Virus record (IMG/VR): IMGVR_UViG_3300046505_000149
Location: 1 to 28,086 of that record
Reading direction: 5' to 3' (one strand)
Length of the DNA stretch: 28,086 nucleotides
Origin: a virus
The position numbers and the translations under genes are program-made. This document shows positions 5,323 through 27,575 of this stretch, piece after piece. Each line of letters begins with the position of its first letter. Position 1 is the stretch's first letter. Under the pieces are notes generated by a model. That model was given only the letters and a program-made list of their open reading frames with translations, did not search any database and was not told the DNA's origin.

Positions 5323-5894
5323 ATCTCGCCGCTACCCAACGTCTGGCCTCGAAGATCCGCGACGAACTCGCTCCGTTCTGCGAGCAGATCGAGATCGCCG
5401 GCTCCATCCGTCGGCAGCGTCCGGAGGTCGCCGACATCGATCTCGTCTGTCTCCCCAGGGGCGCGGCCGGCCTGCACGATCTAATCGATCGTTGCCAGCG
5501 ACGGGCCCGCTGCACGAAGGCCGGAGAACAATACCGCCTTTTCGAACTCGAGAACGGTTTACAGCTCGACCTCTGGATCGCGCACACCGGCTCCGAGGAT
5601 CTCCTCGGCCACAAGACGCCATCCAACTGGGCGACGCTGCTGGTCTGCCGGACTGGTTCGAAGGAGTTCAATATTGCGATCGCCGGGCGCGCCCGCGAGG
5701 TGGGGCTCCATTGGAATCCGCACGCGGGCCTGATGAAACTGACCGGCCATGCCTTCATCGACGGCCGCGGGGCCGACGGGCGCCGGACGGGTGGCTGCGT
5801 CCCGGTCGGCAGCTATATCCCAACGGACACCGAGGAGGATTTCTTCCGCGCAATCAGCCTTGAATTTGTCCGCCCGGAGGAACGCGAGCAATGA
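5319..5894 (+). CDS. stand-alone DNA polymerase X-type nucleotidyltransferase
   Basis: A 191-residue protein with the palm and thumb motifs of family X polymerases (Pol beta type). GSIRR at 28-32 with EVADIDLV supplies the first two metal-binding acidic residues, D39 and D41. LQLDLWIA supplies the third, D84. TGSKEFNIAIAGRAREVGLH at 112-131 matches the thumb motif that contacts primer and incoming nucleotide, with the usual G/L/H/W region following. The 8-kDa lyase and PHP domains of longer family members are absent, so the protein is only the catalytic half. Known relatives fill short gaps during repair. In a transposable phage it could repair gaps left by strand transfer. ATGA overlaps at both ends put it firmly in the operon. 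Confidence 0.78.
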   Translation: MNLAATQRLASKIRDELAPFCEQIEIAGSIRRQRPEVADIDLVCLPRGAAGLHDLIDRCQRRARCTKAGEQYRLFELENGLQLDLWIAHTGSEDLLGHKTPSNWATLLVCRTGSKEFNIAIAGRAREVGLHWNPHAGLMKLTGHAFIDGRGADGRRTGGCVPVGSYIPTDTEEDFFRAISLEFVRPEEREQ

Positions 5895-12323: not shown

Positions 12324-14180
12324 ATGAACACTTCCCGCCAACTCACCCTGCGCGAACGGAGCACGGCAATCTTTGCGGCGGCGCGCCAATTCGGCAAGGC
12401 GCTGGTCGGCCAGCCTGGGGCCGCGCTCTCCCGGCCGGTCATTGCCGACTATACGCCAATCCTCTGGGGCGGCCGGCGCATGACCCCCGACCAGGTCCGC
12501 TATGTCCTCCAGGCAGCGATCGGCGGCAACATTGAGGAGCAATGGGCGCTCTTCGACCTGATGGAGGACACCTGGCCGCGCCTCACGAAGAACTTGAACG
12601 AGGTGCGCCGCGCCTCCGCCCGCACGACCTACACCGTGCAACCCTACAGCGAGCGCGGCGAAAAACCGACGCCCGATGCGATCGATCGCGCCGACATGGT
12701 CGAGGACGCAATCAAGAATTGGCGCCCGAAGCCTGGCACGCTCGAACTCAGTTTCGAGGACGCCCTCTACAACGCCCTGGACGCTTTCGGCAAGGGTCTC
12801 TCCGTCCTCGAGGTCACCTGGCAGCGCAACGAGGAGGGCCTCCTGCCGCGCTGCGCGCATCTCCTGCACCCCTGCCGCTACGGATGGAACGCCGACGGCA
12901 ACGAGCTCGGCCTGGTGAACGCCGGCGAGGCACCCTGGCAGGAATTTCCTCCGGGGCAATTCTGGGTAGGCACCTGGCAGGCCCGCTCCGGTGCCCCCGG
13001 CCAGACCGCGCTCCTGCGCTGCCTGGCGCCCTACTGGGCCGGCATCACCTTCGGCTGGGAATGGCTCCTTTCTAACGCGCAGATCTTCGGGGTCCCGATT
13101 CGCTGGGGCACTTATGACTCCAGCCGCCCGGAGCTGCGCGACCAACTTGCCGCGATGCTCGAGAATCTCGGCCACGCCGGCTGGGCGGCGTTCCCGAGCG
13201 GCACGACCCTCGACCTCAAGGAGGCCGTCACCCGCGCCACCGACAACCCGCAGGTGATTGTCCAGAACATGGCCGACAAGGCCTGCGACCTGCTGATTCT
13301 GGGCCAGGAGGCCTCGAGCGAGAGCAAGACGGCCGGCCTGGGAAGCGGAGCGAGCGAACTGCATGGCGCCGTGCGCGACGATCGCCTGCAGGATGCCGCG
13401 CAATGGTGCGCCGACCTGCTCAACTACCAGCTCGTGCCGGCCGTTCTGCGGTGGAATTGGGGCGACGAGACCGATCCTCCGACAATCGTCCCCGACATCG
13501 CGAGCGAGCCCGATCCTAAATCCAAGGCCGACCGGGACCAGATCCTTTCCGGCCTGGCGCCTCTGCCCAAAAAGTGGTTTTACGATCGGCACGCGATTCC
13601 GATGCCGGAAGATGGCGAGGCCACCGTCGGCGGGCCAGCCGCGGCCCCGGCAAACGACCCCAATTTCCCGCCAAACGGCGGGCCTTCATCGGGCTCGGCT
13701 CCGGGGGGCGCGGGTAAAACCGCCCTCCCGGGGTCAGAGGCCTCAAATTCCCCCCAGGATCGTTTAGGGGGTACCAACACCGCGGGGAAGGGCCCGAGGG
13801 GCCATAGCGTCAATCCGCCGCGTTCCGCCGTACCTCCTAGCGACGCGTTAAAAGCCAAAAACGCGGCCGGGGTGATCGGGCCGCCGGCGCTGCCCGGCGA
13901 CTACCAAATGCCCGGGGCCACCCGGCAGATCCTGGAAATGGCCCTGGCGAAGGATTTCGCGCCTCTGCGCAAGGCGGCCGAGCCGCTCCTGGCGGCCATC
14001 GAGGCCGGCAACCTGGACGTCGTCGGCGAACTTGAGGCCTTCATTGCCCGCCTGGATTCCCTCGCCCCGCAGATGATCGGTGCCTCCGAGCTGGCCGACG
14101 CTCTCGAAGCCGGGCTCGCCCAGGCCGCGATCTCCGGGGCGGCCGCCAGCTACGCCAAGATTTCCCCCGCCAAACCATGA
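12324..14180 (+). CDS. portal protein, Mu gp29-like (DUF935)
   Basis: A 618-residue protein. Residues 1-430 follow the DUF935 portal pattern: YTPILWGGRRMTPDQVRYVL, FDLMEDTWPRLTKNLNEVRR, the central FEDALYNALDAFGKGLSVLE, FGWEWLLSNAQIFGVPIRWG and QNMADKACDLLILGQEASSE. These 12-subunit rings form the DNA entry pore of the head. A ~90-residue low-complexity linker (~440-530, Gly/Pro/Ser/Asn-rich) divides it from the family's C-terminal helical region (LEMALAKDFAPLRKAAEPLL). DUF935 proteins are usually shorter, about 500-530 residues, so the linker looks added. The gene overlaps the protease gene by four bases. Confidence 0.9.
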   Translation: MNTSRQLTLRERSTAIFAAARQFGKALVGQPGAALSRPVIADYTPILWGGRRMTPDQVRYVLQAAIGGNIEEQWALFDLMEDTWPRLTKNLNEVRRASARTTYTVQPYSERGEKPTPDAIDRADMVEDAIKNWRPKPGTLELSFEDALYNALDAFGKGLSVLEVTWQRNEEGLLPRCAHLLHPCRYGWNADGNELGLVNAGEAPWQEFPPGQFWVGTWQARSGAPGQTALLRCLAPYWAGITFGWEWLLSNAQIFGVPIRWGTYDSSRPELRDQLAAMLENLGHAGWAAFPSGTTLDLKEAVTRATDNPQVIVQNMADKACDLLILGQEASSESKTAGLGSGASELHGAVRDDRLQDAAQWCADLLNYQLVPAVLRWNWGDETDPPTIVPDIASEPDPKSKADRDQILSGLAPLPKKWFYDRHAIPMPEDGEATVGGPAAAPANDPNFPPNGGPSSGSAPGGAGKTALPGSEASNSPQDRLGGTNTAGKGPRGHSVNPPRSAVPPSDALKAKNAAGVIGPPALPGDYQMPGATRQILEMALAKDFAPLRKAAEPLLAAIEAGNLDVVGELEAFIARLDSLAPQMIGASELADALEAGLAQAAISGAAASYAKISPAKP

Positions 14181-16201
14181 GAAAACACCTCCTGATCCTC
14201 GCCTCCTCCTCCGACGACCTGGTCGCCCTGGCCGCTTCCCGGCCGGTGGCCGTTCCGGAAGCCGACAAACCGTTGCCCTCGGAAATCGTCTGGATGCCGA
14301 AGGGCGAGCATGATCTCAACGCCTACACCTCCGGCGGGAAGGCAGTCCAGGCCAGGGTGCTTTGCGACCAGGCGGGCGCGCAGGCGATCCAGGCATCGTT
14401 CGCCGAGATCATCGCGGCCGGTCGCCGGGTCTACCTCGACAAGGATCACCTGGATGGCGAAGCCACCGCCTGGGTGACCGGCTTCAGCTGGGATCCTGCG
14501 CAGGGGATCATGGCCAGGGTCGAATGGACCTCGCTCGGCGAGCAGCTGCTCCGCGGCAAGGTCTATTACTCATTCTCCCCGGTTTTCTTCACCAACAAGA
14601 AGACCAACCGCGTCTCGAAACTGCTCTTCGGCCATGCCGCCGGCAGCCTCGTCAACGCCCCAGCTTTCGGCGCCGCAATGCCGGCGCTTATCGCCGCCCG
14701 ATTGGCCGGCGCCGAATCAACCAATCCCGCGTCCGGCGGATCCCCGGATAACAACCAACAGAAACGCACCATGAAAGATCTGCTCATCAAGATCCTGGCC
14801 GCGCTGGCGGTATCCGTTCCCGCCGACGCGACCGAAGAACAGCTGGTGGTCCTCGCGACCGCCAACATCGACAAACTCCCCGCGGCCGGCGCCGAGGGCG
14901 AGGACCTCAAGGACCAGCTCGAGGAACTGCAGGCCCTCAAGGCCAAGGACTCCGAGCGGCGCAAGGCCGATGCCAAGACCGCCGTTGAAGCGGCCGTCGC
15001 TCGCGGGGCCCTGCCGCCCAAGGACGAGGCCATCCAGGCCAAGTGGCGCGGCATGATCGAGGCCGACCCGAAGCACGCCGAACTCCTGGCCGCGATCCCC
15101 GACAATCCGGCCCTCAAGCGGGTGACCGAGCCCGGATCGGTCATCCAGGCGAAGGACGGCGCAGTCGAGATCCTCCGCGCCTATGCGGCGAAGAAGGATT
15201 ACCTCGAGCGCTCGGCGATCTATGCCAAGGACATCTCGCCGCTCTTCAAGCCCGGCTTCAACCTGGGCCCGATCCTCGCGGTCAATTCGCTGGGCAGCCT
15301 CGCCGGCGATCTGGTCACCCAGCGCTCGCTCACGCTCCTCAAGCGCGAGTTCCCGGCGCTCTTCGCCATCTCGACCGATTTCTCGGACGTCGCGGCGAAG
15401 TTTGGGCAGCAGGTCATCGCCCACTTGGTCACGATCCCCACGGTTACCCCCTACAGCGCCGACACCGGCTACGCGGACAGCGGAGCCGCGGTGACCGACG
15501 TGCCGGTCGTCATCAACGCCCACAATGCCGTACAGATCGCCTTCGGAGTGAACGAACTGGCCGCGACGAACCGCGACCTCTTCGGCGAACAGGCTGAGGG
15601 CGCTCACAACGCGATCGGGGCCGACCTGGTCGACGCGCTCCTGGCCGTCATCACCGCCGGCAACTTCAGCGCCTCCACTCTCACGACCGTCGTGGCGCTG
15701 CAGGCCTTCGCCCGCAGTTCGCTGACCGGCATCGCGAAGAAACTCACGAACCGCAAGGTTCCGAAATCGGGCCGGTTCGTCATGCTCAACACCGATTATT
15801 ACGAGAAGATCGGGCAGGACACCTCGATCGTGTCGCTCGCCACGGTGCAGCAGGCGAACATCATCACCGAGGGCCAGCTGCCCCGCATCGCGAAATTCCA
15901 GCCTTTCGAGGTGCAGGAGTTCCCGACGACCGGCAACCTGGTCGGCTTTGCCGGCGCGGCCGACGCGCTCGCGCTGTCGACGCGCGTGCCCAACGACTAC
16001 ACCGCCGCCATGCCGGACGTCCCGAGCAACGGCGTCGTGCAGCTCGTCAAGAACCCGGACACCGGCATCACCGTGATGCTGGTCCGGTTCGTCGACCACC
16101 AGATGGGCAAGAGCTACTGGCGGATCGCCTACATGCGCGGCGCCGCCAAGGGCCAGGTGGCCAGCGGCGAACGCATCATCTCCGCCTCCCCGAGCTCCTG
16201 A
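14177..16201 (+). CDS. protease-scaffold-major capsid polyprotein (Mu gpI + Z + T type fusion)
   Basis: A 674-residue protein fusing products that are separate in Mu. Residues ~1-180 are a prohead protease: LDKDHLDGEATAWVTGFSWD with H91, VEWTSLGEQLLRGKVYYSFS and SPVFF with S134, the presumed His/Ser pair. Residues ~199-300 are a charged scaffold-like helix region (EGEDLKDQLEELQALKAKDS). Residues ~330-674 are an HK97-fold-type major head protein (FALFAISTDFS-like start, VNELAATNRDLFGEQAEGAH, GKSYWRIAYMRGAAKG). Protease and scaffold would be removed during head maturation. An in-frame ATG at 14771 (codon 199) could yield a shorter scaffold-capsid form. The start overlaps the portal stop (ATGA). 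Confidence 0.88.
   Translation: MRKHLLILASSSDDLVALAASRPVAVPEADKPLPSEIVWMPKGEHDLNAYTSGGKAVQARVLCDQAGAQAIQASFAEIIAAGRRVYLDKDHLDGEATAWVTGFSWDPAQGIMARVEWTSLGEQLLRGKVYYSFSPVFFTNKKTNRVSKLLFGHAAGSLVNAPAFGAAMPALIAARLAGAESTNPASGGSPDNNQQKRTMKDLLIKILAALAVSVPADATEEQLVVLATANIDKLPAAGAEGEDLKDQLEELQALKAKDSERRKADAKTAVEAAVARGALPPKDEAIQAKWRGMIEADPKHAELLAAIPDNPALKRVTEPGSVIQAKDGAVEILRAYAAKKDYLERSAIYAKDISPLFKPGFNLGPILAVNSLGSLAGDLVTQRSLTLLKREFPALFAISTDFSDVAAKFGQQVIAHLVTIPTVTPYSADTGYADSGAAVTDVPVVINAHNAVQIAFGVNELAATNRDLFGEQAEGAHNAIGADLVDALLAVITAGNFSASTLTTVVALQAFARSSLTGIAKKLTNRKVPKSGRFVMLNTDYYEKIGQDTSIVSLATVQQANIITEGQLPRIAKFQPFEVQEFPTTGNLVGFAGAADALALSTRVPNDYTAAMPDVPSNGVVQLVKNPDTGITVMLVRFVDHQMGKSYWRIAYMRGAAKGQVASGERIISASPSS
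14771..14773 (+). other. possible internal in-frame start for a scaffold-capsid product
   Basis: This ATG is codon 199 of the polyprotein and starts MKDLLIKILAALAVSVP, just after the protease and a Ser/Asn/Gln-rich joint (SGGSPDNNQQKRT). Its context CGCACC-ATG is the same as before many gene starts in this window. In Mu and other phages a scaffold protein is made from an internal start inside the protease gene, so the position is suggestive. Confidence 0.45.
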
Positions 16202-16225
16202 GCGAGCCCGAAGCGGATTCTCCTC

Positions 16226-16252
16226 GAGGCGCCCGGCCCCTGCGGGCGCCTC
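16226..16252 (+). terminator. 10-bp GC-rich hairpin after the capsid gene
   Basis: GAGGCGCCCG at 16226-16235 pairs perfectly with CGGGCGCCTC at 16243-16252 across a seven-base loop. It sits 24 bases after the capsid stop and 29 before the glycosyltransferase start, in the largest untranslated gap of the window. No T-run follows, so it may be a weak or factor-dependent terminator, or an mRNA-stabilising 3' structure that raises capsid yield over the genes downstream. Confidence 0.6.
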
Positions 16253-16281
16253 CATGCAGAACCTGCCAGCAATTTCCATCG

Positions 16282-17529
16282 GTGAACTCCTACTCGGTCA
16301 TCATCCCATCAGCCAAAGCCGACAACGTCGGCCGGTGCATCGCGGCCATCCGCGAGCATCAGCCAGACGTGCACATTATCGTCGTCGCCGACGGAATCCC
16401 CGCGGCCGAGCGGGCGCCGATCGAGGGAGTGCTCTGGGTCGAGGGCGTGCAGCCGTTCTGCTTCGCGCGCAACGTCAATCTGGGGATCGCGGCCGCCGGC
16501 CAGGATGACGTGATCCTCTGCAACGACGACGCGATCCTGGCCACTGCCGGGGGCTTCAATCTTCTCCGGGAGGCAAGCAGCCACTTCGCCGTGGTGAGCG
16601 CCACGATCCGCGGGTGCTGCTGCAATAGTCGCCAGCAGCTGACGACGGAGGATAACCACGCCGAGCCGACCATGCTCGCCTTCGTCTGCGCCTATATCCC
16701 GCGATCGACGATCGAGGCGATCGGACTCCTCGATGAGCGCTACGAGAATGGCAATTGGGATGACAACGATTACTGCCGCCGCGTGACCGAAGCGGGGCTC
16801 TCGCTGGGCATCTGCGGAGCCTGCGCGATGATCCATGAGGGCACGCATACCACGTTCGCCAAGCTCCCAAACTACCGGCAGATCCTCGATGACAACCAGC
16901 GGCGCTATGAGGAGAAATACAAGCTGACGCGCACGCTCCTTTCGATCTGCGTCTGCTCGATCTTCACGCGCAAAGCCTTCCTCGATCGCCTGCTGGCCGT
17001 TCTCTCTCCCCAGCTCTCCCAGCGCGTGGAACTGCTGATCGCGATCGATGCCGGCCAAGTCCCGATCGGGCAAAAGCGCCAGCGGCTCCTCGACCAGGCG
17101 CGCGGGGATTTTGTCGTCTTCATCGACGACGACGATCTGGTCTCGCCCGACTACGTGCGCCTGATCCTCCGGGCGATCTACGGCAATCCATCGGCCGACG
17201 CCATCACCTACCTTTCGAAGAGGTACCAGGACGGGGTCTATGAGGCCGATTGTGTCTACTCCCTGCGCAATCCGAGCAACGAGGGATTTGTCACGATCGA
17301 TGGCTTCAAGACCTACACCCGGTGGCCCTATCACGTGACGCCGATCCGCCGGGAGATCGCGATCGAGGTGGGCTTCCGGAAGTTGAATTTCCTCGAGGAC
17401 ACCGATTTTGCGACGCGGCTGCGGCCGCTCCTGCACACGGAGGCGTTCATCAACGAGTTTCTCTATTTCTATTGGTGGCGGACCGCCCGCACCGGCGAGC
17501 AGACCAACCGCACGCTCCAGAAAGTCTGA
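16282..17529 (+). CDS. glycosyltransferase with two GT2-like domains
   Basis: A 415-residue protein from GTG 16282. Domain 1 (~1-210) begins SYSVIIPSAKADNVGRCI and carries the DXD-type CNDDA (D82, D83) and NGNWDDNDYCRRV, as in GT-A rhamnosyltransferase-like enzymes. Domain 2 (~215-410) has a second nucleotide-sugar site FIDDDDLVSPDY (D282-D285) and LEDTDFATRL. GT2 enzymes transfer a sugar from a nucleotide donor; the acceptor is not evident. No membrane span, so it is cytoplasmic. Lying between capsid and connector genes, with its own start and a hairpin before it, it looks like a cargo gene that might modify phage proteins, phage DNA or a host glycan. Confidence 0.8.
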   Translation: MNSYSVIIPSAKADNVGRCIAAIREHQPDVHIIVVADGIPAAERAPIEGVLWVEGVQPFCFARNVNLGIAAAGQDDVILCNDDAILATAGGFNLLREASSHFAVVSATIRGCCCNSRQQLTTEDNHAEPTMLAFVCAYIPRSTIEAIGLLDERYENGNWDDNDYCRRVTEAGLSLGICGACAMIHEGTHTTFAKLPNYRQILDDNQRRYEEKYKLTRTLLSICVCSIFTRKAFLDRLLAVLSPQLSQRVELLIAIDAGQVPIGQKRQRLLDQARGDFVVFIDDDDLVSPDYVRLILRAIYGNPSADAITYLSKRYQDGVYEADCVYSLRNPSNEGFVTIDGFKTYTRWPYHVTPIRREIAIEVGFRKLNFLEDTDFATRLRPLLHTEAFINEFLYFYWWRTARTGEQTNRTLQKV

Positions 17530-17531
17530 CC

Positions 17532-17963
17532 ATGTCCTGGATCCTCCTCACTGAAGCCCATCTCCTGAGCGCCCTGGCGGCGATCGAGCTTTCCTCCCTG
17601 CGCACGCTGCAGCTTGCCGAGGACCAGGAGGATCCTTTGCCCGAGGTCCTCTCTCGTGCGACCGGGGAGGTCCAGGGCTATGTCGGCACGCGCTACCAGG
17701 TGGGCCAGCCAGGAACCGTGCCAGAGCAGCTGCTCAACTCGGCGATCGCGATCGCGCGCTGGCGCCTGATCGGCCGGCTGCCGGCCAAGGCGCTGGCCAC
17801 TGAGAACCGCCGGCAGGAATATGAGGACGCCATGGCGCAACTGCGCGACGTGGCCGCGGGCAAGTTCGCCCTGGACGTGGCTGCCGAACCCGCCGCCGAA
17901 CAACCCCGGCCGATTGCCACCGGCCGCTGGGGCAGTTCCACCAGCATTTTCTCCGGGTCATGA
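17532..17963 (+). CDS. Mu gp36-like head-tail connector protein (DUF1320)
   Basis: A 143-residue protein from ATG 17532 (context TCTGACC-ATG). The helical pattern fits DUF1320/gp36: a start with TEAHLLSALAAIEL, then VLSRATGEVQGYVGTRYQVG, VPEQLLNSAIAIARWRLIGR and QEYEDAMAQLRDVAAGKFAL. The conserved features are the AxxEVxxYL-like helix, here ATGEVQGYVGTRY, and the later IARWRL. The tail after ~125 is disordered (Pro/Ser/Gly). The family joins the portal to the tail. It ends in an ATGA overlap with the small membrane protein. Confidence 0.75.
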   Translation: MSWILLTEAHLLSALAAIELSSLRTLQLAEDQEDPLPEVLSRATGEVQGYVGTRYQVGQPGTVPEQLLNSAIAIARWRLIGRLPAKALATENRRQEYEDAMAQLRDVAAGKFALDVAAEPAAEQPRPIATGRWGSSTSIFSGS

Positions 17964-18064
17964 ACAATCCCTCCTACAAATTTCTGGTCGCGGTGCTTCT
18001 CTATGGCTTCGGCGCCATCGTGATCATCGGCCTCGCGGCCATCGCATGGGGTTTCTGGTCATGA
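17960..18064 (+). CDS. 34-residue single-span membrane protein
   Basis: This tiny gene lies exactly between two ATGA overlaps (start 17960, stop 18062-18064). Residues 7-32 are one hydrophobic helix (YKFLVAVLLYGFGAIVIIGL and onward) ending in WGFWS. Perfect coupling to both neighbours argues that it is real. A membrane protein among connector genes is unusual; it may be a small lysis or exclusion factor. Confidence 0.55.
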   Translation: MNNPSYKFLVAVLLYGFGAIVIIGLAAIAWGFWS

Positions 18065-18510
18065 ATCTCTCCAGCCTACAATCGCGCCTGGCCATTCTGG
18101 TCCAAACCGCCGAGACCCTCGCCGGCCGGCCGGTCATCATTGAGGACAAGGGGAACCTGGTGAGCGAACTCGAGACCGCGCTTTCGACGCAGTCCCTCGC
18201 GGTTGTCGTGGCGCCGGCCGGCGGCGAAACCAAGGCGGGGTCGCTCCGCGGCCGCTCGGCCTGGGACACGACCCTCGAGGTGGTCATCCATCGCGGGCAA
18301 CTCGATACCGACCCGATTCCTTCGACGGTGGCTGTCCTGGACGAACTCGTTCCCCTGATCCACGGCGCCCCGATCGATCCCAACAATCCCGCCCTGGGCG
18401 AGTTTGCCTGCCGCCGGCACGAGCTGCGCGAGGGCGGAGACGGCAGCTACTGCCGCGTCCTCACTGTCCTGGTCACCCATCCCTGGTCTCAACCCTCCTC
18501 CACATCATGA
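18061..18510 (+). CDS. Mu gp37-like / tail terminator-type protein
   Basis: A 149-residue protein starting in an ATGA overlap. It begins with a helix (LQSRLAILVQTAETLAGRPV), then alternating strands (LAVVVAPAGGETK, TTLEVVIHRGQL) and a helix TVAVLDELVPLIHG, and closes with the strand CRVLTVLVTHPW. This helix plus mixed sheet layout, ending in a long strand, is that of tail terminator and gp37/DUF1834-like proteins, which cap the tail and join it to the head. Position after gp36 agrees with Mu order. Confidence 0.6.
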   Translation: MNLSSLQSRLAILVQTAETLAGRPVIIEDKGNLVSELETALSTQSLAVVVAPAGGETKAGSLRGRSAWDTTLEVVIHRGQLDTDPIPSTVAVLDELVPLIHGAPIDPNNPALGEFACRRHELREGGDGSYCRVLTVLVTHPWSQPSSTS

Positions 18511-18824
18511 GTCGCGAAATTATTCCCATCCAATTCGACCGCCTAGCCACCGCCGGGGAAGTCGGCCACGCCGTCCCGCTCACCTCCGAAGACTGTTTCC
18601 TCACGAGCGGCATGATCCTCTTCCGGGCTGCCAACGTCGGCGCTGTCACCATCGGCGCCAAGAACACCGGTGGCGTCGCCGAACCGCGGGAGGAAATCCG
18701 CGGCCTCATCCTGGACCCCGCCGCGGGTCGCGAGGGCGGCTCCCTCTACAATCTGAAGAACTACTACATGACCGCCGCCACCGAGGGCGATGGCGTGCTC
18801 ATCATCGGTCACCAGGAGAGCTAG
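18507..18824 (+). CDS. small beta-rich structural or decoration-like protein
   Basis: A 105-residue protein starting in an ATGA overlap. Nearly all of it is alternating strand and turn: MILFRAANVGAVTIGAKNTG, then a loop, then IRGLILDPAAGREGG, LYNLKNYYMTAATEGDGVLI. This pattern, with V-T-I-G, a Leu-x-Pro-Gly-like turn and ‘Asn-Leu…Tyr…Ala…Gly-Asp’ near the end, is frequent in small virion surface proteins of phages. Likely a capsid or tail surface protein; exact site unknown. Confidence 0.5.
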   Translation: MSREIIPIQFDRLATAGEVGHAVPLTSEDCFLTSGMILFRAANVGAVTIGAKNTGGVAEPREEIRGLILDPAAGREGGSLYNLKNYYMTAATEGDGVLIIGHQES

Positions 18825-18862
18825 GCCCGGCCTCTTTACCGCAAAATTTTCCCCGCCCCACC

Positions 18863-20437
18863 ATGAAAATGCTCCGATGCAGTTTAGTCCTATGTCTCGC
18901 GCTCCTTCCTCCGCTGCTGAAAGCGTCGCTGCCTGGTCCCCAGGAGGCGACGACTTCCGACTACACGGCGGGAATCAAGTACGCCGGGCACTCGCAATAC
19001 ATGTCGCTCTATGGCTGGCTTTCGGGCTGGTACGGATCTGGCGGAACTGGTGCGGCCTGGTATTCAGCTTCGGGAACACCGAGCGACAGCGCTGGCGCGA
19101 ATGGCGACTACTATTTCCGCACGTCGACCGGCGACGTCTACAAGAAGCTGGCCAACACCTGGGGAACCCCGATCGCGAATCTAAAGGGCCCCACCGGCAG
19201 CACCGGAAGCACGGGGGCGGCCGGCAGTAACGGAACCAACGGCACAAACGGAGCGACCTGGACCTCCGGCAGCGGCGTGCCCAGCGACGGCAGCGGCGCC
19301 AACGGCGACCACTATTTCCGGACCTCGAACGGTGCTGTTTACCTGAAATCCGGGGGCACCTGGGGAGCGGCGATCGCCAATCTCACCGGCCCCACGGGCA
19401 GCACCGGAAGCACGGGGGCGACCGGCGCGGCCGGAAGCAATGGCACCAACGGTACCAATGGGTCGACCTGGACCTCTGGCAGCGGCGTGCCGAGCGATGG
19501 CTCCGGCGCCAATGGCGACTTCTATTTCCGCACGACCGGCGATGTCTACAAGAAATCTGCTGGCACCTGGGGCTCGCCGATCCTGACCATGCTGTCCGGC
19601 ACGAACCAGGAGATCTTCGACAGCCTCACAGTCCACGGCGCCAATGTCGCCTCCGCCACCACGGTGAACCTCGACACGGCGACCGGCTCCTACGTGCATA
19701 TCACCGGCACGACGACCATCACCGGAATAACGCTCACCGATGGCCGGGTGCGCTATATTGTGTTCGATGGGGTGCTCACGTTCACCCACGGACAATCGCT
19801 GATCCTTCCCGCCGGCGGCAGCAACATCACGACGGCAGCCGGCGATCGCGCAGTTCTCCGTGGCGAGGCCGCGGGCGTCGTGCGCTGCGTCAGTTACCAG
19901 AGAGCGGATGGGACGGCCTTGGTTGCCCCGACGAACATCAGCGGGAATGCCGCGGGTCTCACACCTTCCACCAGTAATTCTGTGAACGTCGGCACCATCG
20001 AGCTCGGGCACGCAAGCGACACGACGATCGCGCGCTCCTCGGCGGGAGTGATTTCTATCGAGGGCGTGACAGTGGACACGATTTCGGGCGGAAACACACT
20101 GACGAACAAGCGTATTACGGGGCGGGTCGGCTCAACGACCTCGAGCGCGACGCCGACGATCAACACAGACAACGTTGACGTCTACAAGCTGACCGCGCAG
20201 GCGGCGGACATCACGTCGATGACCACCAACCTGAGTGGCACTCCGGTCGACGGGGATCAACTGGAGATTCGCATCACCGGCACCGCAGCGCGGGCGATCA
20301 CCTGGGGCACAAGTTTCGTCGCCGGCCCGGTGGCGTTGCCCACCACGACAGTCACGACCAAGACCCTTCGTGTCTTCTTTGAGTTCGATAGCGTGGTGAC
20401 CCATTGGGTTCTTCTCTACAGCGGCAGCGATTCCTGA
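18863..20437 (+). CDS. collagen-like tail-fibre protein with a signal peptide
   Basis: A 524-residue protein from ATG 18863 (CCCCACC-ATG). Residues 1-22 look like a signal peptide (MKMLRCSLVLCLALLPPLLK), unexpected for a fibre. Two and a half modules follow, starting at residues 66, 133 and 203: a W-x-S-x-SG-x-PSD / GANGDxYFRT / VYKK / GTWG box, then a collagen-like Gly-X-Y run (GPTGSTGSTGAAGSNGTNG). The last ~320 residues match modules common in phage fibres: GTIELGHASDTTIARSSAGV, TLTNKRITGRV, TPTINTDNVDVYKLTAQAAD and a final beta sheet. Fibres bind host surface receptors. The signal implies either export or a retained N-terminal anchor. Confidence 0.8.
   Translation: MKMLRCSLVLCLALLPPLLKASLPGPQEATTSDYTAGIKYAGHSQYMSLYGWLSGWYGSGGTGAAWYSASGTPSDSAGANGDYYFRTSTGDVYKKLANTWGTPIANLKGPTGSTGSTGAAGSNGTNGTNGATWTSGSGVPSDGSGANGDHYFRTSNGAVYLKSGGTWGAAIANLTGPTGSTGSTGATGAAGSNGTNGTNGSTWTSGSGVPSDGSGANGDFYFRTTGDVYKKSAGTWGSPILTMLSGTNQEIFDSLTVHGANVASATTVNLDTATGSYVHITGTTTITGITLTDGRVRYIVFDGVLTFTHGQSLILPAGGSNITTAAGDRAVLRGEAAGVVRCVSYQRADGTALVAPTNISGNAAGLTPSTSNSVNVGTIELGHASDTTIARSSAGVISIEGVTVDTISGGNTLTNKRITGRVGSTTSSATPTINTDNVDVYKLTAQAADITSMTTNLSGTPVDGDQLEIRITGTAARAITWGTSFVAGPVALPTTTVTTKTLRVFFEFDSVVTHWVLLYSGSDS
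19058..19588 (+). repeat. two and a half copies of a ~200-bp fibre module
   Basis: Copy 1 is 19058-19258, copy 2 is 19259-19468 and copy 3, cut before its collagen-like part, is 19469 to about 19588. Each encodes a Trp-started box with PSD, GANGD, YFRT and GTWG, then Gly-X-Y triplets. DNA copies are near-identical in places (for example around CAGCACCGGAAGCACGGGGG), which points to recent duplication or conversion. Confidence 0.85.
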
Positions 20438-20440
20438 GTC

Positions 20441-21028
20441 ATGAAACGTTTCCCCGCCTTCTCTCTTGTTTTGTTCGCGTTCATCGCGTTCCTCTGTACT
20501 GGGGCTCGGTCGCATCGCTGGATTCCACCGCAGCCGGTGTCGGGGGGCGGTGCCGGCACAGTCAAGGACTCCTACGCGGGAACCTATAATTGGCAGTGGA
20601 CTTTTGGGGACAGCGGAGGCTACACGGGGGCTTCGGCCAAGTTTACGGCGACCGCAAGTTACACGAGCACGCAGGCGACTATTCGGCTAAAGCGGAATGG
20701 AACGGGTGGCCCCGGAAACGTTGAGGTGAGGATCTATGCGGACAATGCGGGCGTGGAGGGAACGCTGCTGGCGACGAGTGGCTCCGTTCCCTGTTCTTCC
20801 CTAGACCCATCGGGCGCGGTTCAGGTGTTTCCAAACCTAGTCTACTCATTCACAGCCCCGACGGCTTATCATATTGCCGTATTTTACACCGGCACACCCG
20901 ACGATGGGTCTAACTGTCCACAGGTAATGTATGACGATAGGATCGGGCACGACTTTCGTGGGTACTACGGGAGTTGGATGACTGCCCTAGATGACGGCTC
21001 TTTGAGATTCCAGATTTACGGTAACTGA
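20441..21028 (+). CDS. exported beta-rich protein
   Basis: A 195-residue protein with a clear signal peptide (MKRFPAFSLVLFAFIAFLCT, cleavage near residues 22-24). The rest is strands and turns rich in Gly, Thr and Tyr: YNWQWTFGDSGGYTGASAKF, ATIRLKRNGTGGPGNVEVRI, YSFTAPTAYHIAVFYTG. This resembles a jelly-roll or carbohydrate-binding type sandwich, in which the ‘VEVRIYADNAGVEGTLLA’ segment is typical of extracellular adhesion modules. Base composition is lower in GC than the morphogenesis genes. It follows the fibre gene by three bases and precedes the beta-helix gene by two, so the three are coupled. Receptor or glycan binding is inferred. Confidence 0.65.
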   Translation: MKRFPAFSLVLFAFIAFLCTGARSHRWIPPQPVSGGGAGTVKDSYAGTYNWQWTFGDSGGYTGASAKFTATASYTSTQATIRLKRNGTGGPGNVEVRIYADNAGVEGTLLATSGSVPCSSLDPSGAVQVFPNLVYSFTAPTAYHIAVFYTGTPDDGSNCPQVMYDDRIGHDFRGYYGSWMTALDDGSLRFQIYGN

Positions 21029-21030
21029 CC

Positions 21031-23331
21031 ATGAAGCGTTTACTCGTTATCTTCCTCCTCGCCTGCACCGTAGAGGCGTCCGACTACACGATTGATTCCT
21101 CGCGCCTTCCCTCCGGTGGGACATGGGCGGGTGTTGGCGTGACTGGCGGGATTGACCAATATCGTCCTGGTGGAGTCAATGCCCGCCCGTCCGGGAGCGG
21201 CACGACTATCACCATCACGAGTGCAATTCCAGGTTCGGCGCTGATTGCCTCGGGCTCCACCACGACTACCACGGGTTCCATTTCGGCGGGCTCAAACCAG
21301 TTGACGGTGGCGTCCCCAACTTCCTTTTCGGCGCACATGGGACTCAACCTGAAGGGAGCGATTGAAACGGTTCGCGGAGTGATTGGAACGGGCGCTACCT
21401 CATCCGGCAATCTCACGATCACCATTAACAGCACCCCGTACACCATCTCCGTAGTAGCTGGGGACACTGCCATTCAGGTCAGAGATAAGATCGTTACGGG
21501 ACTTGCTGCGGCGGGCACAGTCACTGCCGGTAACGAAAACTACAACGACCACCCGGCTTGGTCCTGTGCGACGGTGGCGTATGATGCAAATACTGCCCAC
21601 TCGACATGGTCTGCTGGGTCTACGGGAGTCGTCTCCAACAGCGGGCACGACAGCTTCACGGTCAGTTACGCGGATTTCATCACGCTGATTTCATCGGTCA
21701 ATGGATCGGTGCTGACCCTGGCGGATAATGCGATAGCGACGGTTGCCGGCCTCCCCGTGTGGCACGAGGATTCGCAGGCTTTCATCGCGGCCAATAATGG
21801 AGCCGTCGCCGGGTCCGTCGTTTACATGCCCAATGGCACATATCGAATCACCACCCTGAATGACGTCCGCCAGTTCAATCCCAAGTCCGACATCACATGG
21901 CGCGGGCAGAGCAAGGCGGGCACAATCTGGATACCCACTGGTTGGCCCCCAATCGAAACGACTAACGGGAATTTCGGTAGCCCAATCACAATCACAGGCG
22001 GAGCCACAAAGGGCAGCAGGACTCTTTCCTTGGCTGACGCGAGCGGGGTTGCGGTGGGCAAGATGATCCAGATAACGCAGCTCAATCCCGCCTATGTTCG
22101 TTACAATGCGAATTACTGGTCGATCGCCTCGTGGGTCGGACACGACATCAATCGGCTCATGTCGATTATGCTGATGGTGACGGCGCGGGATACGGTATCG
22201 AATCCCAACACCATCACGATTGATCGCCCCCTGCCGATCAACATGACGGACACGCCGCAGATCACCGTCTGTTCCACCCTCACGTCCAAGGTCGGGTTTG
22301 AAGATTTGACGATTGACTGCTCGGGATGCTCACCGGGACTCCGCTTCTTCTACGCCAACGACTGCTGGGTCTATAACGTCTTGTTCAAGACGATGGTGGC
22401 GCGGTCCATCTGGTTCTCAGAGGTCACGAATTGCACGGTCAAGCACTGTGACTTTTCCGGCCACTATGTCAGCGGAGACCAGTACGGGGCGAACCACGAG
22501 AATCTGGATTTCTACGAGAATTGCTGCTGGAACATTGTAGAGGACTGCTGGTTCTACGATGCGGGGTTTACCCCGTTCATGTGGGGAGACTGGCAGGGCG
22601 GGTGTGTTGGGAACGCTTTTGTCTACAACTACCAGGACAGCATGACCCAACTGGCCGATAATGGTTCGGGGCCAATGGCAATCGACATCAACCACGGCGC
22701 TTGGAATATGTTCAATCTGGTTGAGGGAAACTATGTCGAGAACATCTCGGCTGATGGCTATTACGCAGGGGACGGTTATTGCACCATTGCCCGCAACCGG
22801 GTGACTGGTTGGTTCTCCCACAATTCCACCTATTTGGATCATGCTGCGATTGTGCTCTCACACTGGTCGGTCTATGAGAACGTGGTTGGCAACATTCTTG
22901 GGACCAGCGGGCACTCCACCATTTATCAGGCCAGCGGGTACACCGATTTCCAGGCTCCGCATATCTACCGGCTTGGTTACGCCACGAGCGGCAGCCGGGC
23001 AGGGGGCGACACTTTTCTGTCCAACCCCGCCAGCTCAAGTGCGGGCGATTCCAACGTGGAAGCAACACTGGTACGCGTAGGCAATTACAACTACGTGAAC
23101 AACGCGATTCCTGCCGGCGAGACTCTCGGGGGTACGACCGTCCCGAACAGCTACATCTATGCCTCTAAACCAGCGTGGTTCGGCAGCCTGACATGGCCTG
23201 CATTCGACCCGGCCAACCCTAGCGCGAATGCCATGACGCAGGTCCCTGCCGGCTATCGCTATATCAATGGGCAAGACCCGCCAGCGGAAGGCGACACGAC
23301 CCGCCGAGTCGGCTTCCTTGTTATCCATTGA
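21031..23331 (+). CDS. exported right-handed beta-helix protein, pectate lyase-like fold
   Basis: A 766-residue protein with a signal peptide (MKRLLVIFLLACTVEA, cleavage likely before SDYT). The N-terminal ~200 residues are Gly/Ser/Thr-rich beta sequence. From ~235, DSQAFIAANNGAVAGSVVYM followed by PNGTYRI is the standard entry of a pectin-lyase-fold domain. Beta-helix coils run to ~600, with repeats such as EDLTIDCSGC, NDCWVYNVLFKT, VTNCTVKHCDFSG and DYYENC-type turns. Several Cys suit an exported protein. Phage beta-helix proteins commonly degrade capsules or lipopolysaccharide, but catalytic residues could not be assigned. Lower GC than the phage backbone suggests acquisition. Confidence 0.75.
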   Translation: MKRLLVIFLLACTVEASDYTIDSSRLPSGGTWAGVGVTGGIDQYRPGGVNARPSGSGTTITITSAIPGSALIASGSTTTTTGSISAGSNQLTVASPTSFSAHMGLNLKGAIETVRGVIGTGATSSGNLTITINSTPYTISVVAGDTAIQVRDKIVTGLAAAGTVTAGNENYNDHPAWSCATVAYDANTAHSTWSAGSTGVVSNSGHDSFTVSYADFITLISSVNGSVLTLADNAIATVAGLPVWHEDSQAFIAANNGAVAGSVVYMPNGTYRITTLNDVRQFNPKSDITWRGQSKAGTIWIPTGWPPIETTNGNFGSPITITGGATKGSRTLSLADASGVAVGKMIQITQLNPAYVRYNANYWSIASWVGHDINRLMSIMLMVTARDTVSNPNTITIDRPLPINMTDTPQITVCSTLTSKVGFEDLTIDCSGCSPGLRFFYANDCWVYNVLFKTMVARSIWFSEVTNCTVKHCDFSGHYVSGDQYGANHENLDFYENCCWNIVEDCWFYDAGFTPFMWGDWQGGCVGNAFVYNYQDSMTQLADNGSGPMAIDINHGAWNMFNLVEGNYVENISADGYYAGDGYCTIARNRVTGWFSHNSTYLDHAAIVLSHWSVYENVVGNILGTSGHSTIYQASGYTDFQAPHIYRLGYATSGSRAGGDTFLSNPASSSAGDSNVEATLVRVGNYNYVNNAIPAGETLGGTTVPNSYIYASKPAWFGSLTWPAFDPANPSANAMTQVPAGYRYINGQDPPAEGDTTRRVGFLVIH

Positions 23332-23335
23332 TCCC

Positions 23336-23602
23336 GTGAGTACCGATCAACAGTCGACCCCCCGCCAGCCCTGGCGCTTGGCCTTCTGCGAGCAGGACGG
23401 CATGCCGTCATTCGCGCGGGTCTGCACTGCGCTGATGGTCATCTGCGCGCTCTTCTGGGTGACCTACCTGGTGATCCACAACAAGGCGCTGCCCGACCTG
23501 GGTGGGGCCGCGCTATTCATCACCGTCCTCTACGGCACCAACAAATTCTCGACCATGCTTGAGAAGAAGGACCCGCCGGCGCCGCCCGCGCCTCCTGTTT
23601 GA
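23336..23602 (+). CDS. holin-like protein with two membrane segments
   Basis: An 88-residue protein from GTG 23336, four bases after the beta-helix gene. Two hydrophobic segments, RVCTALMVICALFWVTYLVI and LGGAALFITVLYGTNKF, are joined by a short loop (HNKALPDL), and a charged tail KKDPPAPPAPPV ends the protein. Size, two spans and a polar tail fit class II holins, which open the inner membrane at lysis. An ATG at 23402 would give a shorter form (MPSFARV) and is possible as a second start. There is no endolysin next to it; the lysozyme-like gene is at 3051. Confidence 0.6.
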   Translation: MSTDQQSTPRQPWRLAFCEQDGMPSFARVCTALMVICALFWVTYLVIHNKALPDLGGAALFITVLYGTNKFSTMLEKKDPPAPPAPPV

Positions 23603-23647
23603 ACCCTCTCTATTTTTCACCCGCAACTCAACCCATAGGATCCCACC

Positions 23648-24133
23648 ATGTCATTGCCCTCCGCTCCCTTCGACACCGCAAAATCCATCTTTGCGGGTCT
23701 CGCCATCATTGAACTGACGCCCACCGGCGGCACCAAAGTCGTCTTCGAAAGCCGGCTCCTCACCTCGAAACTCGAGCAGGAAATCAAGGACATCTCCCGA
23801 CCCGATTCCAAGGGCGTGCTCCGCAAGGTGCGCACCGTGCTGACGAAGCAGCAGGAATCGTTCACCTTCGAGATCGACGAGGCGAAGCGCCTGCTCGACA
23901 TCTTCGCCAATTCGCTCGCCGGCCGGGTCACCGGGGTCTGCACCCTCTGGCTGCCGGATCCCGACGACCTCACGGGCAAGATCGCCCTCAAGAGCGAGGT
24001 CGGGTTCGCCTGCACCATCACCCGCGACGGCGACATGCCCTTCGGCAACTCCGAGTTCGCCAAGGCCACGATCAACCTGGAGAGCAACAAGCAGGGCCCG
24101 ATCACCTGGACCGCGGACGCCAGCTACTCCTGA
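23648..24133 (+). CDS. putative major tail (tube) protein
   Basis: A 161-residue protein starting at ATG 23648 (TCCCACC-ATG). It alternates strands and one helix: AIIELTPTGGTKVVFESRLL, VRTVLTKQQESFTFEIDEAK, VTGVCTLWLPDPDDLTGK, SEVGFACTITRDGDMPF, FAKATINLESNKQGPITW. Small beta-barrel folds of this size form tail tubes in siphoviruses, and the gene directly precedes the tail chaperone and tape measure, where the tube gene normally lies. Family name by sequence is uncertain. Confidence 0.65.
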   Translation: MSLPSAPFDTAKSIFAGLAIIELTPTGGTKVVFESRLLTSKLEQEIKDISRPDSKGVLRKVRTVLTKQQESFTFEIDEAKRLLDIFANSLAGRVTGVCTLWLPDPDDLTGKIALKSEVGFACTITRDGDMPFGNSEFAKATINLESNKQGPITWTADASYS

Positions 24134-24168
24134 TCGCCCAGGCCGATCAACCTCCCAGCCAAATCCCG

Positions 24169-24618
24169 ATGAGCACCATCAAACAGAAGACCGCCGTCGT
24201 TGAAATCGAGGGCGGTCCCCGCTTCGAACTCCACCGCATGCGGTGGAAGCCCACCAAAGAGTTCCTCCGCAAGCTCGCCGCGGTGGTCACGCAGCTGATC
24301 CGCGAGGGGCGCCTGGGACAGCTCTCCGCGGCCGACGGCACCGGGAAACTCTCCTTTCTCGATGCGCTGGCCGCGCAGATTCCGGCGATCATCGAGCAGT
24401 CCGAGGAGCTGGTCACGCTCCTCGTGACGCAGAGCACTGACCTCACCCCGGAGAAATTCGACGAGCTGGACGCCCTGGCCGCGAGCGAACTCCTCAGCGC
24501 CGCGCTGGAGGTCAACTGCGACCAAGAACTAAAAAACTCCTGGGCCGGCATCGTGGCAAAGGTCGCAGCCCTCTTGCCGGCCCCCACGGTCGCGGCCGAG
24601 GCACCGAAGACGAGTTGA
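24169..24618 (+). CDS. tail assembly chaperone, zero-frame product (G-type)
   Basis: A 149-residue, mostly helical protein (TKEFLRKLAAVVTQLIREGR, AAQIPAIIEQSEELVTLLVT, LDALAASELLSAALEVNC). It lies between the tube and tape measure genes, the fixed place of the lambda G/GT-type chaperones that hold the tape measure for tail assembly. Codons 121-123 are CTA AAA AAC, forming an A_AAA_AAC slippery site in phase, and the -1 frame after it stays open to 24755. Most ribosomes would end here at TGA 24616-24618. Confidence 0.75.
   Translation: MSTIKQKTAVVEIEGGPRFELHRMRWKPTKEFLRKLAAVVTQLIREGRLGQLSAADGTGKLSFLDALAAQIPAIIEQSEELVTLLVTQSTDLTPEKFDELDALAASELLSAALEVNCDQELKNSWAGIVAKVAALLPAPTVAAEAPKTS
24531..24583 (+). 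promoter_or_regulatory. programmed -1 ribosomal frameshift site with stem-loop
   Basis: The heptamer A AAA AAC occupies 24531-24537, in phase with the upstream gene (codons CTA AAA AAC). Four bases later GGGCCGGCA (24542-24550) pairs perfectly with TGCCGGCCC (24575-24583), a 9-bp stem with a 24-base loop. Loop bases CGTGG (24552-24556) also match CCACG (24584-24588), leaving room for an alternative pairing. This A-rich run stands out in a GC-rich gene that otherwise favours CTC/CTG and AAG. Confidence 0.85.
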
Positions 24619-24755
24619 TGGGGACCCTCTATGTCACCCTGGTCGATGCGGGCTTCGATCCGGCCTACCTCGACCAGTGCACGCTCCTGGATCTCGACCT
24701 CTTCACCCGCCACGTCGCCGAGTTCCGAAAAAAACAAGGGCCGAAGCTCTTCTGA
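24537..24755 (+). CDS. -1 frameshift extension of the tail chaperone (GT-type)
   Basis: After slippage at A_AAA_AAC reading continues from 24537 in the -1 frame with no stop until TGA 24753-24755. This gives 123 + 72 = 195 residues. The first part of the extension is basic and Gly/Arg-rich (LLGRHRGKGRSPLAGPHG), then comes a helical end (YLDQCTLLDLDLFTRHVAEF). In lambda the T part of GT binds the tape measure. The last part could also be read alone from ATG 24618 (45 residues, TGATG overlap), so a separate small gene remains possible. The tape measure starts 15 bases later. Confidence 0.75.
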   Translation, partial: LLGRHRGKGRSPLAGPHGRGRGTEDELMGTLYVTLVDAGFDPAYLDQCTLLDLDLFTRHVAEFRKKQGPKLF

Positions 24756-24770
24756 GCCGGCCCGGCCGCC

Positions 24771-27575
24771 ATGTCCGACCAGGTAGAAATCACCCTCAGC
24801 TTCAAGCCCATCCTCGATGGGCTTCAGCGCTTCGGCACGGCGCTCGAGCAGCGCCTGCAGAAGGTGAGGGATTTCAACAACTCGCTCGCCCAGGGCGCGG
24901 CCGCCACCGAAGCATTGCTCAGCCAGGCGGCCACGGTCCTCGGGATCGCGGCCATCAACAAATACATCGCCAAGGCAGCCGAGGAAGAGCGGGCCCAGAA
25001 GCAGCTCGCGGCCGCCCTGGCGCAGAGCGGGCAGTATTCGAAAAACTGGCTGCAGGAGCTCAACGACCAGGCGGAGGCACTGCAGCGGGTCACGATGTTC
25101 TCGGACGAGGACATAATGGCCGCCCAGCGCACGCTCGCGACCTATGGCGTGCGGGGCGAGAAATTGAAGGAGCTCACAGCGGCCACGCTTGATTTTGCTG
25201 CGGCCCAAGGCATGAGCGGCCAAAATGCGGCAGAACTTGTCGCGAAGACGATTGGCACTTCGGTCAACGCGCTCAGCCGCTACATCGGAGAACTGGACAA
25301 GAGCAAGCCCAAGGTGGAAGGAGTAATTGAGGCATTCGGGCGTTTTTCGAATCAGGCGAGAGCCGCCGTGGTTTTTCCAGATCTTCACGAAGCCGGGGTT
25401 GGCCTTGAACAGATCGAGAAATCGATCGGGCGCATGGCGGAGGGCACATTCGGAACGGCGATCAAATCCTTCGTCGATGGACTGAAGGCGGGTTTTGACA
25501 TGCTGAAGCAATGGGGCTCAGCGATACAGAAACTCCTCCCGGAATCTGACATTCTCCAACGTACCTTACAGGGCATGGGTTCCAGTCTAGGCTGGCTTAT
25601 TGCGATTTTTCTGGGGTTGCTCGCTCCCTTGGTCGCTTTGAAGGGCGGAATCGGGGCTTTAACCATGGCATTTGGAGCCAATGGGGGCCTCTACGGAGCT
25701 CTATTTCTCGCTGGGTTTGCCCTTGGGAATTGGCTAAACCAGCTAAAACTCGGGGGCGCCACGGTCGGAGATTGGATCGCGACCACGATGGCCATGTTCA
25801 TGGGTTGGGGCGCGCAGGTCTGGGGAGCGATTCGAAAGGGCTGGGAGAACATCAGCTTCACTTTCAAGGCCTACATTCCCGTCGTGAAGGTGGACGTGCT
25901 CGAGTTTCTCTCCTGGCTGGCGGACAAATTCAACAATAAGCTCGGCGAGAAACTCGGATTCAAAATCCCAACCGATGGGCTGAAGGAATCGCTGACCGCG
26001 GCGAGAACCGAGGCTGGGAAACTTTACGCCGAGCACGAAAAGAATCTTGCGCAGATAACCAAAGAAACGAAGGAATCGGCCGCCCATTGGGAGGATGTCG
26101 CCAGCGACGTTTTGGCGACAGGAATGGGAGCCGGAACGAAGACGGGCCGCGGTTCGGCTGAGCCGAAGAATGTACCAGGAGGAGTGCCCGACGCCATGGC
26201 TGCTCAGAAAGAAGAAATGGCTCAGACTTTCCTTTGGCAGACGCAGTTACTGAGCGCTCAATTAGCCGGAAACCAGGCGGAGGTCGATCGGCTGCAGCAT
26301 CTCATCGACGAGCGAAAACTGACCAAGGAACTGCAGGAACTCGGAGCGGGATTTGGGCCTGCAATAAAGATACGGCTCACTGCTGAGGATCTCCTCCGCG
26401 ACAAGGAACGGGCCCGGGTAAATGCCGAGATCCAATTCTCGCAGCAGATTGGCGCGCTCGAGATCAAGCGGGCCAACATTGAGGCCAATCGTCTCCTGAC
26501 CACCGAGGAGAAGCAGCGCGAGGTCAACGCGCTCCTGGTCGAGGAAAACACCCTGATCGACAGGAAACTCGCCAAAGATGAGGCGGCGCTGAAGTCCGGC
26601 GTGACTGACCAGGAAAAGACGCGCCTCATGCAGGAGATCGAGCAGCTGCGAAAGCAACTGGCCGACAATACGCGCACCCAGGAGGGCAATCGCCCACTAT
26701 CGATCGGCGAAGGCCTGGCCGCCGGCGCCAACAGCTTCCTCGATGCGATCGGCAACCGCGCGAAGATTGCAGCCGACGCCGTCACCGGTACGCTGAACTC
26801 GGCGCTGCAGGGCACGAGCGATCTCCTCTACAACGTCGCCAGCGGCTCGATGACCTTCGCGCAGGCCTGGGGATCGGCCACGCTGGCGGTTGGCCAGCAA
26901 TTTCTCCGGATGGCCACCGACATGGTGGCGAAACTGATTTGGAAGGCCACGGTCGAGCGCGGGCTCATCGCATTGACGACCGCCCTCCACATTGGCGGGG
27001 AGGCCAGGAAGACAGAGTCCACCGCCACCGGATCCGGCATCCGGCTTGGTCTCATCATCAAAGAGGCCTTGGCGGCCGTCTATCATGGCGCCGTGGCGGC
27101 CTTTTCGGCCATGGCCTCAATTCCCTACGTTGGCCCGATTCTCGCGTTTGCCGCAATGGCGGCCGCGCTCGCAGGGGGCATTTCCCTGGTCTCCAAGATC
27201 GGCCACGCCGAGGGTGGACTGATATCGGGACCTGGCGGGCCGACCGATGACAGCATCTTCACCCGGCTTTCCAATGGGGAATTTGTCGCGAGGGCGGCCG
27301 CCGTCGATCGCTTCGGGCCGGATTTCTTTAATGCGCTCAACGCCGGCGTCCTCGACCTCGCTGCATTGCCCGCCAATGTGGCCGGGCAGATCTCCAGTCC
27401 GGATGCGCCTGGCGGATCCTCCGCAGCGGTCGCCGGCGGCGGGTCATCTCCCCAGCAAGTCCACATCGGAGTGACCGCCCTCGATGTCGGATCCTCCTGG
27501 CAGCAATGGGCAGAGACGCGGAAGGGCCGCCGCTATATCCTCAACATGATCCGCGGCACCGCCCAGGAGGTTTGA
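24771..27575 (+). CDS. tail tape measure protein
   Basis: A 934-residue protein, the longest in the window. Long helical stretches occur at both halves (LDGLQRFGTALEQRLQKVRD near the start; LAKDEAALKSGVTDQEKTRL near 600-640). A hydrophobic region lies at ~273-330 (LGWLIAIFLGLLAPLVALKG and LYGALFLAGFALGNWL), with another near 760-810 (ASIPYVGPILAFAAMAAALA). Near the C-terminus GGPTDDSIFTRLSNGEFVAR and the following AAVDRFGPDFFNALNAG match the end motif of many tape measure proteins. These set the length of the tail and enter the host membrane during injection. At ~934 residues, a tail of roughly 140 nm is suggested by the usual length ratio. Confidence 0.88.
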   Translation: MSDQVEITLSFKPILDGLQRFGTALEQRLQKVRDFNNSLAQGAAATEALLSQAATVLGIAAINKYIAKAAEEERAQKQLAAALAQSGQYSKNWLQELNDQAEALQRVTMFSDEDIMAAQRTLATYGVRGEKLKELTAATLDFAAAQGMSGQNAAELVAKTIGTSVNALSRYIGELDKSKPKVEGVIEAFGRFSNQARAAVVFPDLHEAGVGLEQIEKSIGRMAEGTFGTAIKSFVDGLKAGFDMLKQWGSAIQKLLPESDILQRTLQGMGSSLGWLIAIFLGLLAPLVALKGGIGALTMAFGANGGLYGALFLAGFALGNWLNQLKLGGATVGDWIATTMAMFMGWGAQVWGAIRKGWENISFTFKAYIPVVKVDVLEFLSWLADKFNNKLGEKLGFKIPTDGLKESLTAARTEAGKLYAEHEKNLAQITKETKESAAHWEDVASDVLATGMGAGTKTGRGSAEPKNVPGGVPDAMAAQKEEMAQTFLWQTQLLSAQLAGNQAEVDRLQHLIDERKLTKELQELGAGFGPAIKIRLTAEDLLRDKERARVNAEIQFSQQIGALEIKRANIEANRLLTTEEKQREVNALLVEENTLIDRKLAKDEAALKSGVTDQEKTRLMQEIEQLRKQLADNTRTQEGNRPLSIGEGLAAGANSFLDAIGNRAKIAADAVTGTLNSALQGTSDLLYNVASGSMTFAQAWGSATLAVGQQFLRMATDMVAKLIWKATVERGLIALTTALHIGGEARKTESTATGSGIRLGLIIKEALAAVYHGAVAAFSAMASIPYVGPILAFAAMAAALAGGISLVSKIGHAEGGLISGPGGPTDDSIFTRLSNGEFVARAAAVDRFGPDFFNALNAGVLDLAALPANVAGQISSPDAPGGSSAAVAGGGSSPQQVHIGVTALDVGSSWQQWAETRKGRRYILNMIRGTAQEV

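Follow-up and report, generated by a model that had tools for sequence, protein, structure and literature searches.

A cassette of fibre-type genes with predicted Sec signal peptides in the late operon of a virus probably infecting Verrucomicrobia

Three consecutive genes of the 28,086-base IMG/VR virus record IMGVR_UViG_3300046505_000149, the whole of which is referred to here as the window, encode fibre-type proteins whose N-termini have the features of Sec signal peptides. The corresponding open reading frames (ORFs) code for a collagen-like fibre of 524 aa (18863..20437, + strand), a beta-rich protein of 195 aa (20441..21028, + strand) and a beta-helix-type protein of 766 aa (21031..23331, + strand), and are separated by gaps of 3 and 2 bases. 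From their sequences and those of their relatives, we conclude that the three are probably Sec-exported, fibre-derived proteins. The best overall explanation, in which belief and doubt are about evenly balanced, is that they form an accessory fibre cassette whose exported products join the virions.

Signal peptides were called throughout with a home-made rule on mechanically called ORFs; the rule considers the charge of the n-region, an uncharged hydrophobic stretch and small residues at positions -3/-1, with a score of 10 as the pass mark. The fibre, the beta-rich protein and the beta-helix protein scored 11.8, 12.5 and 13.1, respectively, all of them with an n/h/c-region pattern. As controls, the known E. 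coli signals of Bla, OmpA, MalE, PhoA and DsbA scored 10.4-11.9, and no signal was called in LacZ or GroEL. None of the other window genes tested reached 10 (portal 7.1, capsid 8.7, the rest without a score), and segments taken at random from inside these three proteins passed in 0-2% of trials.

The predicted signal peptide of the fibre (18863..18925, + strand) has 21 aa and would be cleaved after MKMLRCSLVLCLALLPPLLKA, between LKA and SLPG; this site (LKA/S) is the weakest among the three. That of the beta-rich protein (20441..20512, + strand) has 24 aa, with cleavage predicted after MKRFPAFSLVLFAFIAFLCTGARS, between ARS and HRW, a cut between TGA and RSH being also possible, and that of the beta-helix protein (21031..21078, + strand) has 16 aa and would be removed after MKRLLVIFLLACTVEA, between VEA and SDYT. 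The features expected for Sec and signal peptidase I, that is, a positive n-region, a hydrophobic h-region and small -3/-1 residues, are present in all three. A lipoprotein reading, with processing by signal peptidase II, was rejected, as no proper lipobox with a Cys at about position 15-35 could be read from the sequences: in the beta-helix protein, Cys12 (LLAC) lies too near the start, and in the other two the Cys of LVLC and AFLC is not preceded by a small residue. The first-pass annotation, which had noted three consecutive fibre-type ORFs with signal peptides at a spacing of 2-3 bases, is thus borne out, with strong backing from the relatives described below.

Relatives of the virus were collected through the capsid gene, and individual loci are designated here by L numbers. 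Among fibre-like ORFs, defined as those of at least 250 aa, rich in G/S/T/N/A and poor in charged residues, a signal peptide was called in 27 of the 65 from viral relatives, compared with 2/118 in loci of other phages fetched solely via a shared fibre motif (p=2e-12), with 31/429 non-fibre ORFs of the same relatives (p about 1e-11) and with 0/9 in nine Mu-portal phages of other hosts. With a stricter cut-off of 11, the counts for the first three groups were 19/65, 2/118 and 15/429. As the loci are not independent, the p-values overstate the certainty, although the effect is still large. Signal-bearing starts recur in the relatives and are not a quirk of this contig.

Homologous fibres were found with and without a signal in two sets of relatives. 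In the first set, the fibre of L020 and L022 begins with MSARPPVTFLSRLNDV, whereas the homologous fibre of L024, L025, L027, L030 and L073, which were aligned, and of L051 has a signal followed by QA[SG]RPPVTTLSGLSDV or something close to it. At most of these loci, the fibre gene comes after the gene of a 155-aa tail-completion-type protein and overlaps it by four bases. In the second set, with a similar gene neighbourhood, L032 and L019 begin with MADEKISDLPAASSV without a signal and L029 has a signal and then ADVPISALPPATTV. In both sets, the start of the signal-less protein is the predicted start of the processed one. In sequence terms, the signal is a clean extra N-terminal module placed before an ordinary fibre start. 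Homologues without the hydrophobic N-terminus had been named in the first-pass annotation as evidence against a signal; such homologues do exist and begin at the mature N-terminus, but the signal stands, because it is a separate module in front of that start.

In a wider motif scan, the conserved fibre N-terminus was found to begin at Met in 71 of 75 motif loci, and three further fusions of signal and fibre were revealed (L239, L247 and L256). As the gene neighbourhoods of these three look different, the fusion probably arose more than once. The fibres of L025 and L029 matched tail-fibre PHROGs (1e-31 and 1e-18, respectively), and the C-terminal part of the latter had matches at 42-48% among the annotated tail fibres of enterobacterial phage isolates (Enterobacter, Klebsiella and Pectobacterium). 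In the first 34 codons behind the signal, synonymous differences (pS) amounted to 0.5-0.9 or reached saturation, with pN mostly at 0.23-0.36, and the closest pair (L024/L073) showed a dN/dS of 0.04. The conserved fibre N-terminus behind the signal is under purifying selection, which makes us lean towards exported fibres that are attached to the virion, since there would be less reason for this domain to be retained in a free secreted protein.

The three genes lie in the middle of a five-gene cassette bordered by gene e (18088..18510, + strand), of tail-completion type, and gene a (23648..24133, + strand), of tail-tube type, both putative roles being assigned from position. The first cassette gene (18507..18824, + strand) encodes a 105-aa protein with no signal peptide and no family match, which is not found between e and a in close relatives. 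The last one (23336..23602, + strand), with a GTG start, encodes a membrane protein of 88 aa, probably with two hydrophobic helices, also without a family match and holin-like by shape only. The signal-peptide-like starts are those of the three genes in between. In the six closest relatives (L008-L011, L014 and L015), with capsids 56-68% identical to that of the window, e (48-61% identical) is directly adjoined by a (32-57% identical), and the cassette is absent in 6/6. Judged by gene order, the cassette is a block insertion between the tail-completion and tail-tube genes and presents one trait expected of lysogenic-conversion (moron) genes, that of an extra block absent from close relatives. 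In the corresponding place of a more distant relative, L036, a 1,496-aa fibre is followed by a 660-aa pectate-lyase-fold protein and then by a small membrane protein; the first two both carry signal peptides and their genes overlap by four bases. No sequence similarity was detected between the membrane gene of the window (23336-23602) and its positional counterpart in L036. The earlier proposal that the three proteins act together gains support as regards the cassette, which was inserted as a block and shares with L036 the order of a signal-bearing fibre followed by a signal-bearing beta-helix protein.

Of the three proteins, the fibre is the one that matched several tail PHROGs (best tail match phrog_15437, 2e-9; also phrog_3030, 1e-13), and no PHROG match was obtained for the other two. 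Behind its signal peptide, it consists of repeats of about 70 aa, collagen-like GPTGSTG linkers, for which the Pfam Collagen match was below the cut-off, and a C-terminal phage-fibre domain that is 58% identical to that of the L032 fibre, 71% to L275 and 64% to L276, all three in proteins lacking a signal, and is also present in other phage records. The beta-rich protein has a putative choice-of-anchor R-like domain, with a match to NCBIfam NF041539 (E=1.8e-4) that scores 21.5 bits, below the curated cut-off of 30. Its C-terminus, SLRFQIYGN, does not contain a cell-surface anchor, and its structure model, of poor quality (pLDDT 47), shows an N-terminal helix followed by strands.

The beta-helix-type protein, with 12 Cys in its mature part, appears to be a distant relative of the 660-aa L036 protein (25% over 309 aa, E=1e-10), which matches PF12708 at 6e-10 and has a signal peptide with a score of 12.4; the signal is kept between homologues that are 25% identical. 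The trimming of polysaccharides, which had been proposed for the set, is suggested for this third protein alone by this 25% match to a pectate-lyase-fold protein. A Pfam search gave no direct match for it and its structure model (pLDDT 29) was unusable. Searches of phage records gave no direct homologue of either the beta-rich or the beta-helix protein, and IMG/VR gave none of the latter; a search of solved structures gave no meaningful match.

The virus probably infects Verrucomicrobia, as the sole genome matches of its capsid family were three metagenome-assembled genomes of this phylum. Signals were also found in prophages within genomes of the phylum, in 3/9 fibre-like ORFs. Among them is L132, whose fibre has a signal directly followed by QTRISDLPSLSGSG and is encoded immediately before a tape-measure-type gene; five matches to it were found in 388 genomes of the phylum. 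L139 (with L283), a prophage located in a chromosome of this phylum, likewise encodes signal-bearing fibre-type proteins. The tail module of L139 ends with a tip gene followed by a gene on the opposite strand, with no fibre-like gene after the tip. This layout would fit a phage whose own fibre is the exported one, although many siphophages manage with a tip alone. The nearest isolate by Mu-type portal (29%) is Akkermansia phage Chantilly (L166, ON453895.1), and the one fibre-like ORF of this phage has no signal peptide.

We propose that the three genes constitute an accessory fibre cassette within the late operon of this phage, the probable hosts of which are Verrucomicrobia. As sequence and relatives suggest, their products would be synthesized with a cleavable Sec signal peptide and cross the inner membrane. 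The fibre part would descend from ordinary tail or neck fibres with a signal peptide gained as an N-terminal module, as shown for the homologous fibres of relatives. The exported and processed fibres would fold outside the cytoplasm and, at or after lysis, may join finished virions via their normal N-terminal attachment domain. This final step is the one we slightly favour, with a confidence just short of even, over a role as free decoys or as glycan-binding or glycan-cutting proteins. Several points weigh against it. We know of no precedent for the loading of fibres from outside the cytoplasm. Neither of the two conserved N-terminal motifs is present in the window fibre, and the attachment-domain argument comes from the relatives. 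The beta-rich protein resembles in sequence a domain of bacterial exported proteins more closely than a fibre. Finally, the six nearest relatives do without the cassette, which is hence dispensable in this lineage.

Nearly as likely is the possibility that the proteins are exported but never become part of the virion, acting instead as free decoys or adhesins of fibre origin, or as glycan-active enzymes, by which the host surface is coated or modified. They could serve in superinfection exclusion, receptor masking or debris clearing, as products of lysogenic-conversion or late accessory genes. An accessory insertion absent from close relatives would fit such functions, as would the likeness of the beta-rich protein to a domain of anchored exported proteins and the pectate-lyase-like and GDSL-like domains in signal-bearing proteins of relatives, whereas the purifying selection seen behind the signal, at the N-terminus of the fibre, and the existence of same-locus homologues without a signal argue against them. 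The location of the genes inside the late tail operon also speaks against free proteins, and so does the lack of C-terminal anchors: no surface-anchor or sorting signal was found when looked for at the C-termini of the three proteins, and just 2/31 proteins had any hydrophobic C-terminal stretch. For the same two reasons, the role at the lysogen surface offered by the first-pass annotation did not gain support.

The possibility that the hydrophobic N-termini are not cleaved, serving as anchors inside the particle or as signal-anchors that hold the fibres at the membrane until lysis, seems improbable. Hydrophobic N-termini alone would fit it, and signal-anchor-release (SAR) is known for lysis proteins of phages, but in the relatives small -3/-1 residues stand right before the canonical fibre start, an argument that is only partly independent as the rule requires such residues, and the signal-less homologues have no replacement of any kind. 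Still less credible is an artefact of chance or start-site choice, with the true starts downstream and the hydrophobic stretches untranslated. No Shine-Dalgarno sequence precedes the three starts, which would fit such an artefact, but none precedes the portal, capsid and tape-measure genes either, and most structural genes in 12324-27575 also lack one. In addition, the first in-frame Met after the start occurs at residue 47 of the fibre, 163 of the beta-rich protein and 103 of the beta-helix protein, which makes a start-site artefact unlikely, and the pattern recurs with strong statistics in the relatives.

To our knowledge, tailed phages do not send tail fibres out of the cytoplasm and are taken to assemble completely within it, and fibre genes are annotated on this assumption. 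No earlier report of signal peptides on tail fibres was found in the open-access part of the literature, which is weak evidence of absence. Ordinary tail fibres, with an 'ISxLPxAT...' or 'RPPVTxLSGLSDV' N-terminus and collagen-like repeats, share with the proteins described here the mature N-terminal motifs (in relatives), the collagen-like linkers and the C-terminal domains, and in some relatives signal-less homologues occupy the same gene slot. They differ in starting with the motif at Met, where a Sec-type signal stands in front here. Lom and Bor of lambda are phage-encoded exported proteins, with lom near the tail-fibre genes, although they are outer-membrane or lipoproteins unrelated to fibres; in contrast, the predicted exported proteins of the window include fibre parts and sit in a late tail operon. 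The third protein may be distantly related to tailspike-type pectate-lyase-fold depolymerases (PF12708) through the L036 protein, and differs from them in its predicted signal peptide. The second one shares with bacterial choice-of-anchor R proteins (NF041539) a weak domain match and predicted export, but is below the family cut-off and has no C-terminal anchor.

More generally, and more tentatively than for the window itself, some tailed phages, mainly in Verrucomicrobia, may secrete receptor-binding fibres via Sec and complete the virion outside the cytoplasm at or after lysis, which would be a second assembly route that arose more than once as ordinary fibre genes acquired a signal peptide. 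Export signals that are repeatedly gained and lost by homologous fibre genes amount to a natural experiment, which predicts either a new assembly step, with fibres added to the particle at lysis, or secreted fibre decoys as a class of their own. A further warning is that phage fibres may be hidden among the signal-bearing, adhesin-like genes of Verrucomicrobia genomes.

Regarding the remaining window genes, a Mu-type portal gene (12324-14180) is followed by a protease-capsid fusion gene (14177-16201), in which a Mu-like protease and the major head protein are joined in one 674-aa ORF, as also in relatives; the tape-measure gene is located at 24771-27575. Between the capsid and tail-completion genes there is a glycosyltransferase-2-like gene (16282-17529, Pfam E=1e-12), 60-64% identical in the six closest relatives, with a possible role in virion or surface glycosylation. 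It holds the slot downstream of the capsid gene in which a signal-peptide protein recurs, directly or closely downstream, in other phages (L036:12035-12553, L047:12135-12632, L052:12799-13275, L077:12490-12987, L081:12691-13239, L037:7447-7929, L088:12023-12481 and, on the reverse complement, L139:5398-6447). Unexpectedly for this kind of phage, a 191-aa ORF (5319-5894) matched the DNA polymerase beta thumb domain (PF14791, 2e-10). A related phage encodes in its structural region a large protein (L005:18369-20840) that has a hydrophobic stretch at the N-terminus and looks by eye like an alpha-galactosidase-type glycosidase.

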